Source: Utricularia gibba (taxonomy: Eukaryota > Streptophyta > Magnoliopsida > Lamiales > Lentibulariaceae). Taken from it: a stretch of 64,000 nucleotides of DNA. The stretch covers positions 1,614,501 to 1,678,500 of the forward strand of contig NEEC01000014.1 of NCBI GenBank assembly GCA_002189035.1, read 5' to 3'. Both the position numbers and the translations under genes were made by a program. Below the pieces are notes generated by a model. That model saw only the letters and a list, made by a program, of their open reading frames with translations. It was not told the origin of the DNA and searched no databases. Shown here in pieces: positions 38,799-43,039 of the stretch (the stretch's first letter is position 1; each line of letters starts with the position of its first letter).

Positions 38799-40642
38799 TC
38801 ACTCCCTGTAGATTCTCCTCAAAACTACATTGTTGGCATCTGCAACCCTGGACCTATTTGCTCCCATCGTGACCGGATTTCTGATCCGCTCTTCCGGTGG
38901 CGGCAAGTCCCGGGTTTCTGCAGAACCAGAACGCAGCTCCGCCGGCGGAATGAAACAGTCCACTGACAGCCCTGGAACGTTGAATGCTACTTCCTCAATT
39001 GTCCATGACTCTTCCATTCTTGTCTTCGTGTGGCTCATTGCATCCTCACCGAACCGAAAAAGGGTGACCACCGATCTGCCCGAGTGTGCTATCATGATCC
39101 CATCAACGGCTCTGTAGTCATGGATGAAGGAGTTGATGGTCGTTTCCCAATACACCGCATCTCCACCATTGTTCTGGATTCGGGTCAAATGGGAATCTTC
39201 TAGATGCACAAGAAGTCCTGTTCTCTGGCTGAAGTATCCAAACAAAACGTGGCGTATGATCTCCGCAGGCCCTTCACTTCTAGCTCTGAGTGTGTGTGGA
39301 TCGGCACACAGTTTCAACACAAAACAATCTTCTCCGTTGATTCTTTTCTCTCCTGTGCATCTTGCATTGATGAACATGTTTGCTGTTGTTCTCGGATCAA
39401 GACCCTGAAAATACATCAATATGCATCAGTTCAGACAACGTTCGGCGCTGCTGATTGTGCAGGAAAACTATGAAAGTCCTTGCCTGAAGTGCACGACGAA
39501 GAGGTCTCACAGGCCCTTTTGCTGTATGAGCTCCAAGCCAAGGAGTATGCCGCCACACCAGTTTCCCATTGCAACCAGCATGGATCTTGCTGCCCCCCAG
39601 AGCCAGTTCCACGTACCACATATCATGATTCATTTGCCACAGCACGAATCCACCCGATTCAGCAGCTCTGGTTAGGTTCTTGCCTTTGATAACCTTGCTC
39701 GCATTTTCGATATCAGATGCAGATAACTTAACCTTCCCCATTGCATAGGCATTTTGCACTGAATTATGAAGCATCTGGCCACCTGAGGCTGCCAGATATT
39801 GCTGTAGTATGTAGAGAGCAGAGGAAGTTTCCTGCGTAGTAGCCCAAAGCATCAGTGTTTCAAACGTTGGAGGAGACTAGTCAAGGACCACCATGGGCCA
39901 AAACCACATGAACATTAAAGTGATGAATAAGCGCAAAATAATCCACCAACCAAGAAATGTGACAACCAGTCACCATCTTCATCATTTTGTCTTGCATGTA
40001 AACCCAAACAGTTTATATCTTTCGAAAGCTCAGGTTTACGGGGAAAAAAACTAAGCATTTCAACAAATACAGGGATCTACTCATGACGGCGAAAGAAGAA
40101 AAGCAATGAATGTGACAAATATTGCAACTTTACACACACAAATAAACACCAGTAACTCAATCCTTTCATCTCGTTCAACAGATGAAAACACAAAAAAAGG
40201 CGAGGTTACCGAGGAAACAGAGAGAGAGAGAACTGACAATGGGGGTCTCCTTGATGGAGAGGTGAGGCAGACGGTGGTGGTGGCTAACGTGCACCGGCGC
40301 CAATGGTGCGCCGAGGACGCCGAGCAGCAGCCTCAGATCAGACCGCGAGTAACCCGGCCCGACAGCCGAAACGGGTGTACGGCAAAGCCAGTTCGCCCAC
40401 CAATCGCTCTTCGGGTCACGCGAACCGGACCGGCTCGGATCCGGACCCTCCCTCAATGGCGACAGCGTCTCAGTCCCCGTTCTAGCAAATAACGCCTCCG
40501 GCGGCCCCACACTCTTCCTCCGCCGTGGCCGCGACCCAGAACGCGACGGTGACTCACTCCTGCCCCTCCTGGACCTCGACGGCGATAACCCCCTAACCAC
40601 CTCCTCCTTCAGGGAGGCAAAGAAACCCTGCTTCCGCTCCAT
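38799..40642 (-). CDS. DUF620 family protein
   Basis: This is a plant-specific protein of unknown function. Three exons, 40642-40238, 39831-39484 and 39404-38799, give 452 residues. The N-terminus MERKQGFFASLKEEVVRGLS and the Arg/Ser-rich stretch after it are typical of the family. The DUF620 domain starts with ETSSALYILQQYLAASGG and continues with NAYAMGKVKL, GGFVLWQMNHDMWYVELALG, KLVWRHTPWLGAHTAKGPVR and, from exon 3, GLDPRTTANMF, RINGEDCFVLKL, HVLFGYFSQRTGLLVHLEDS and ESWTIEEVAFNVPGLS. No signal peptide or membrane helix is evident. The second intron appears to be of the GC-AG class, since the exon must end in CTTCAG at 39484 and the intron then begins GCAAGG. All three exons join in phase. 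Confidence 0.92.
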
Positions 40643-41203: not shown

Positions 41204-43039
41204 TCAATTAAATGCCAAGTTTGTCCGAAGGTGGGAGAAACCAACTTGGTTTCTCCGACCACGGAGGATCAAATACAAGATGAATGCCACGTAGGCGCTG
41301 CCGCCGAGGAAGACAAAGAATCTTAACAGGGATCTGTCTACTTTGGCAACGAAGAAATCCACGAGGACGTATCCATTCACGAATATCACCACCGCAGCCA
41401 CGAGCCAGGAGATTCTCTGCTTGAGCAACGGGGGGATTCTGTGAGAATCGGAATGGGGAGGTAAAAAAGAAGGGTCTTTCGTTACCTGTAATGTGGCTGT
41501 GATGGTGAAGCTTCCCATGATGCGCTCCTCTGAGACGAAGTGGAGAAGAGGGATGATGGCGAAGGGGATTTGCATAGCCTGAAGGACATTTAGCCACTCG
41601 TTGATGACATCGATAAGTGATTCTGAGCGTTTGAACAGCACGGCGACGATGATGGTGGGCAAAATGGCGCAGCTTCTGGTGATGAGTGATCGGAGTAGTG
41701 GGCTGATGGGAAGATGGAGGAATCCAGTCATGATGAATTGGCCGGCGTAAGTGCCAGAGATCGTGCTGCTCTGCCCTGCCGCGAGAAGCCCGATTCCCCA
41801 AACGTAGACGAGGCCGCCCCCGAATCGGCGTTGTAGAAACTCGCCAGCGTTGAGGAGGCCGATGCTGTCGGCTTCCGGGGATCCGTAGAAGCCCCTGGCG
41901 AAGACCGTCATCACGAACAGGTTTATCAGGAAGGAGATTGAGACGGCGACCCATGACTCGATTGTCAAGTAATTCAACGCTTCCTGGATCAGGCTGCGAC
42001 GGCTCCGGTCGACCCGCTGCGGGACTAAGGCGGAGTAGAGGAAAACGTTGTACGGAGTTATCACGCAGCCTACGATACCCACGGCTTGTTGAATTGTCGT
42101 CGAACTGAGCTTCGGTACAACAAGCCCTGCGAAGCAAAGATCCGATCAACAGCGCATCCTCTTCAGTTACAAACAACCATCAAACAACAAAGCTGAAGTT
42201 CATGTTGGGCGAGTTCAAATCTATTAGAATCTTTAAAAGTAAATTGCTGCTCACTCAATTGACCCACCGTCTATAAGCTGAGCGATGCTCGGCTCAACGT
42301 CTATGAACAACCAGGCGAAAGAGAGCGCCATCATGGAAATAAGAAGGCCGAAGAAGGCTTCCAGCATTTTTACACCGTAGTTATCATCGAGAAGCAAGAA
42401 GATGAAGCTGGAAATGGAAGGGGGCGCCGATCTTAGTCATTTTGCGGGCAAACTGTAATGATTTTATATAAAAAGGGGGTGTTCTAACCAATCGGAAGCA
42501 GTGACGAGGACACCTGCCCAAAGGGGGAAAACTCCTTTTGTCAAAATTCTGATGGCAATGGCGCTACCGATGACCTCCTGAATATCAGCTCCGATCAAAG
42601 CGATCTCCGCCATGATCCACAGCATGATCCTTGACCAAAAAGGGTACTCGTCTCTGCAAACCTCAGCTAAATGACGGCCGGTGGCCACACCGAGTCTCAT
42701 GGAAAGGAGCTGGATGAGAAGGCCCATCAACGTCGTCCATAGTAGCAGCCAGAGCAACGAATATCCAGCGATCGCGCCGGATTGCAGATCGCCTTCCAAG
42801 TTCCCTGGATCAAGAAACGCTACGCTCATCAGAAACCCTGGCCCGGAGAACCTCCACAGCTTCCTCCACGAGAAAGGCGCCGGAGATTCAGGCCCTGCGC
42901 CCTCCTCGATCTCCATAATGCTGGACCATCGCTCAGCATCGGAGTGCAATAACGGGTCGGGATCGTGCGCCGTCCTCGGCGACGGCGAACGACAAAAGCT
43001 GGCATTGGAGATGTCGTCTACCGGAGAAGAGGAGGTCAT
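41204..43039 (-). CDS. NRAMP-family divalent metal transporter with altered TM6 motif
   Basis: The product is a proton-coupled metal transporter of 514 residues, near the size of Arabidopsis NRAMP2 (530). Four exons join in phase: 43039-42489, 42407-42268, 42126-41486 and 41416-41204. An acidic, Ser-rich cytosolic leader precedes [17 protein letters not shown] and the first helix with [16 protein letters not shown], where DPGN (77-80) is the canonical metal site. The segment [16 protein letters not shown] follows. The conserved transport signature [20 protein letters not shown] and [16 protein letters not shown] are present. The helix-6 site reads [14 protein letters not shown] (T254-N257) where the family has MPHNVFLHSAL, so the methionine and histidine are replaced. 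The last intron is only 69 bp and in frame. The first in-frame ATG at 43039 is used since only TTG lies upstream. The substrate may therefore differ from Mn/Fe. Confidence 0.9.

Follow-up and report, generated by a model that had tools for sequence, protein, structure and literature searches.

A four-exon NRAMP gene of Utricularia gibba with a convergent Nrat1-like TPYN motif at the metal-binding site

Analysis of a 64,000-nucleotide stretch of Utricularia gibba DNA (the window) revealed on the minus strand, at 41204-43039, an intact four-exon NRAMP gene with an uninterrupted product of 514 amino acids, in which the MPHN of transmembrane helix 6 (TM6) is replaced by TPYN. The second helix-6b histidine is also replaced by tyrosine, FLH having become FLY. 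The MPH motif is the basis of NRAMP selectivity, and to our knowledge only two natural departures from it with known function have been described, namely bacterial NRMT and grass NRAT. We regard as evenly balanced the proposal that the gene encodes an intact transporter of the NRAMP2-5 type, probably located in the tonoplast, with a metal site retuned to carry Mg2+ (perhaps also Ca2+) alongside Mn2+ and with proton coupling that is probably weak or absent. The features of the gene are as follows.

42489..43039, minus strand: NRAMP exon 1, with the start codon, an acidic N-terminus containing DPDPLL, TM1 with DPGN, TM2 and TM3
42268..42407, minus strand: NRAMP exon 2, with GT-AG borders; exon boundaries shared with the paralogs on contigs C304 and C505
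41486..42126, minus strand: NRAMP exon 3, with TM6 carrying TPYN, the GQSST signature, TM9 and TM10
41204..41416, minus strand: NRAMP exon 4, ending in the stop codon
42047..42058, minus strand: TPYN (T254 P255 Y256 N257) replacing MPHN, from the reverse complement and alignment
42035..42037, minus strand: Y261 codon (TAC) replacing the second helix-6b histidine, following TPYN-VFL

All intron borders of the gene are GT-AG, and neither a frameshift nor a stop codon interrupts it. The plus strand at 42047-42058 reads gttgtacggagt; its reverse complement, ACT CCG TAC AAC, encodes TPYN in frame within exon 3. A preliminary description of this DNA had reported TPYN next to intact DPGN and GQSST, with the histidine of FLH changed as well. 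These observations were confirmed: DPGN (residues 77-80, TM1) and GQSST (residues 348-352) are unaltered, and the codon of residue 261 is TAC. A misread frame or chance as the source of TPYN is excluded, as the codons are in frame within an intact gene. Compared with ATG, CAC and CAC, the methionine codon differs in two bases (ATG to ACT) and each histidine codon in one. A single read error cannot account for four differing bases spread over three codons in a full frame of 514 codons with GT-AG introns, and the preliminary description was right in considering such an error unlikely.

The protein matches the Pfam Nramp family PF01566 with 349.6 bits (cut-off 29.8) and TIGR01197 with 395.2 bits (cut-off 272.5). 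The proton-pathway residues of TM3 (D152 and E155) and TM9 (arginines R376 and R381, as aligned) are present, as are N410 and Q413 of TM10; the helix-6b histidine pair is lost. By its sequence the protein belongs to the NRAMP fold family and clade and falls outside the canonical transition-metal-selective type, since the MPH that marks this selectivity in TM6 is TPY here. Its four exons and its position in the tree with NRAMP2-5-type paralogs place the gene in the NRAMP2-5-type clade. With the plant tonoplast proteins of this type (AtNRAMP3/4 and SlNRAMP2/3) it shares four exons, an acidic N-terminus and grouping with four-exon paralogs; four exons were also reported for a tomato NRAMP subfamily (PMC11311520). 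Unlike these relatives, it has TPYN and FLY rather than MPHN and FLH, and the substitution S414A. By analogy with other four-exon plant NRAMPs (PMC11311520) the transporter is probably tonoplast-located. The DPDPLL sequence in its N-terminus has the form of a dileucine-type sorting motif.

To define how strictly the site is conserved, 138 bacterial NRAMP reading frames were collected, 129 of which have the TM1 D..N site and form the canonical subset. MPH was found at the site in 129 of 129 canonical sequences and the second histidine in 127; MPHN..LHS is likewise common to tomato NRAMPs (PMC11311520). The canonical sequences, human NRAMP2 and the solved MntH 5M95 gave 67 columns conserved to at least 98%, and the positions of M254, H256 and H261 all fall within these. 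We scored as private any change by which the window protein differs from the bacteria, human NRAMP2 and the two four-exon paralogs. Only five such changes fall in the 67 columns (R197K, M254T, H256Y, H261Y and L461V), and the TM6 site accounts for three. Residue 414, beside the TM10 metal-site residue, is alanine in the window protein and serine or cysteine in all canonical bacterial sequences. Since the whole gene evolves fast, the number of private changes in TM6, taken by itself, shows no enrichment (6 of 22 comparable columns, 71 of 330 overall). What stands out in the alignment is the identity of the changed TM6 residues rather than their number. A deletion of three residues near GGGL was considered as a sign of decay and rejected, human NRAMP2 and bacterial sequences also being without those residues. 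GPGT in TM1 is combined with VPYN in TM6 in three NRAMP-related bacterial proteins, so a bacterial branch outside the canonical set has tyrosine at the first helix-6b histidine position too.

A search for the Nramp family was performed over the whole genome (100-Mb assembly, 516 contigs). Besides the window gene it found two four-exon genes on contigs C304 and C505 (64 and 62% identity to the window protein), three many-exon NRAMP genes on C328, C375 and C255, and one EIN2-like gene on C1. At the metal site the C304 and C505 paralogs read IMPHNVFLHSALVQSRE. In the many-exon paralogs an intron interrupts the motif after ATGCC, between MP and HN, and reading across the splice junction yields MPHN and then FLHSA. 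Six-frame translation that runs into this intron makes C375 and C255 seem to have MPY, a reading that we rejected as an artefact. MPHN and FLH are kept in all five other NRAMP transporters, and the window gene is the only one found in its genome with an altered motif. Taken with the high conservation of the three columns, this indicates that the substitutions cannot be put down to random variation in a poorly constrained motif. Transfer of the gene from bacteria was rejected, because its exon boundaries are common to the paralogs within the genome. The three four-exon genes share no local synteny within about 10 kb. The many-exon NRAMP1/6-type paralog at C328:2340200-2343600 (minus strand) reads LLASGMSSTITGTYAGQ, with GMSS where GQSS is near-universal. 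In the literature searched, we found no paper linking an NRAMP with TPYN, or relevantly with Utricularia.

The preliminary description had noted that the rice aluminium transporter Nrat1 has threonine at the methionine position, and had proposed an independent origin for the change. The first is borne out by the literature (PMC10115441, PMC5949535): among 25 plant NRAMPs the AIIT motif with its threonine is an invariant hallmark of the Nrat1 group (PMC5949535). The solved Setaria protein SiNRAT (8ONT) reads GAIITPYNLFLHSALV in this segment, with AIITPYN. It has exactly TPYN, so both substitutions, threonine for the methionine ligand and tyrosine for the first helix-6b histidine (PMC10115441), match Nrat1; the likeness in the second goes beyond what had been claimed. 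In the maximum-likelihood tree the window gene falls with the C304 and C505 paralogs (support 100/99), and SiNRAT joins the many-exon paralogs (support 100/99). A forced grouping of the window gene with SiNRAT was rejected by the AU test (lnL lower by 267.9, p-AU 2.26e-05). Orthology or shared ancestry with Nrat1 is thereby ruled out, and the TPYN shared with SiNRAT is convergent. The gene acquired its NRAT-like signature independently of the grass aluminium transporters, in agreement with the earlier proposal.

The likeness is confined to helix 6. The window protein has DPGN in TM1 where NRAT has DPSN, Ala151 where SiNRAT has the helix-3 (TM3) Asp140, and CVIT in motif B where NRAT has AIIT. 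The second helix-6b histidine, present in NRAT, is missing from the window protein as well. In TM10 it has N/Q in place of the S/L of NRAT, with Asn410 at the amide position where NRAT has serine; the position equivalent to Gln413 coordinates Mn2+ in human NRAMPs (PMC10115441, PMC13060092). Transport by SiNRAT itself extends to Mn2+, Ca2+ and Mg2+ and is not coupled to protons (PMC10115441).

Published mutagenesis bears directly on this site. Mapping of DraNramp positions through human NRAMP2 and the solved MntH 5M95 showed Thr, Tyr, Gln and Ala in the window protein at the equivalents of 230, 232, 381 and 382 (the last being residue 414). In DraNramp, M230A/S/T gave the strongest Mg2+ import among single changes, H232 changes likewise admit Mg2+, H232Y acts jointly with changes at 381 or 382, and L381Q on the M230A background favours Mg2+; the motif methionine is tied to exclusion of alkaline-earth ions (PMC13060092). 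The effects of substitutions depend on context: the Met265Ala mutant of human Nramp2 failed to transport any metal tested, and in OsNramp3 either M241T or H243Y abolished Mn complementation (PMC5949535). The bacterial NRMT transporter EleNRMT, an uncoupled Mg2+ carrier, resembles the window protein in loss of the soft methionine and replacement of both helix-6b histidines, which are implicated in H+ release (PMC8806188). In EleNRMT these became Trp and Asn, the TM3/TM9 polar pathway kept in the window protein is missing, and the sequence is distant (E 1.6e-5). BfraNramp has lost proton coupling although its MPH is unchanged (PMC12873925). Overall, the published data point to a protein that may have broadened Mg2+/Ca2+ and Mn2+ transport and weakened proton coupling, rather than Al3+ transport.

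We propose the following scheme. With the soft methionine ligand replaced by threonine (a hard oxygen), both helix-6b histidines by tyrosine and the conserved core otherwise unchanged, alternating-access metal transport would continue. Selectivity against alkaline-earth ions would be relaxed, and Mg2+, perhaps also Ca2+, would pass along with Mn2+, transport of which is possibly retained. Proton coupling would probably be weak or absent, making the protein more like a facilitated carrier, which might free divalent ions from the vacuole. A more specific version, for which we have somewhat less confidence, is that a vacuolar-type NRAMP which independently gained the Nrat1 helix-6 signature and dropped the second helix-6b histidine became a proton-uncoupled carrier of Mg2+ or of hard cations more broadly. 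If so, NRMT and NRAT would be joined by a third natural case of an NRAMP that has escaped transition-metal selectivity. With the exact NRAT helix-6 signature gained independently on an otherwise canonical plant protein, the effect of helix 6 is set apart from the effects of DPSN, the helix-3 aspartate and TM10, and the gene offers a ready-made natural experiment on the residues that determine hard-ion selectivity and proton coupling.

Relaxed constraint is the main rival and a real competitor, though in our view an unlikely one: a redundant NRAMP copy may be drifting to loss, the helix-6 changes having inactivated or crippled it. Over its whole length the window gene has an evolutionary rate about 1.5-2 times that of the two four-exon paralogs, with 69 private residues (30 and 36 in the paralogs) and a dN of 0.158 (0.089 and 0.106). 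Three strictly conserved functional residues are gone, and both paralogs persist in the genome as intact canonical genes. Against such drift, the frame and all splice sites are undamaged, and 62 of the 67 most conserved columns have no private change. Random decay would rarely yield the exact Thr and Tyr pair of Nrat1. A value of omega=1 on the window-gene branch was rejected by about 17 log units, but synonymous sites are saturated, so that omega averages a long branch and may conceal recent relaxation.

An ordinary Mn/Fe transporter, in which compensating changes tolerate the altered motif and any difference is limited to kinetics or pH dependence, is improbable. DraNramp M230 mutants still transport Mn2+ (PMC13060092), as does SiNRAT with its TPYN (PMC10115441), and the remaining site residues of the window protein are canonical. 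This reading is countered by the Mg2+ that M230S/T admit once the methionine that excludes alkaline-earth ions is lost (PMC13060092).

A shift in ion preference, as suggested in the preliminary description, is plausible as an inference from the motif; its extension to Al3+ as a favoured substrate fared worse. A convergent Nrat1-type transporter handling aluminium in acid water or soil would account for the threonine and tyrosine shared with SiNRAT and OsNrat1, but we consider it quite improbable. The serine of DPSN, the helix-3 aspartate and AIIT are all absent and the TM10 amide is kept. In rice, the M241T change by itself did not confer Al uptake on OsNramp3, the whole of motif B being needed (PMC5949535), and the authors of the SiNRAT study judged motif exchange insufficient (PMC10115441). 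For these reasons Al3+ is the less likely substrate, and Mg2+, or a broad range of divalent ions, would be favoured. An assembly or base-calling error at the TPYN site is hardly credible given the four base differences in an otherwise clean frame, and the flanking segment has diverged too (VPQR for VQSRE), which fits genuine evolutionary change.

On either side of the NRAMP gene lie a DUF620 gene (38799-39425, minus strand) and a senescence-regulator gene (PF04520; 44164-44646, plus strand). The GC3 of the NRAMP gene is 0.67, far above that of the four-exon paralogs (0.50 and 0.44).
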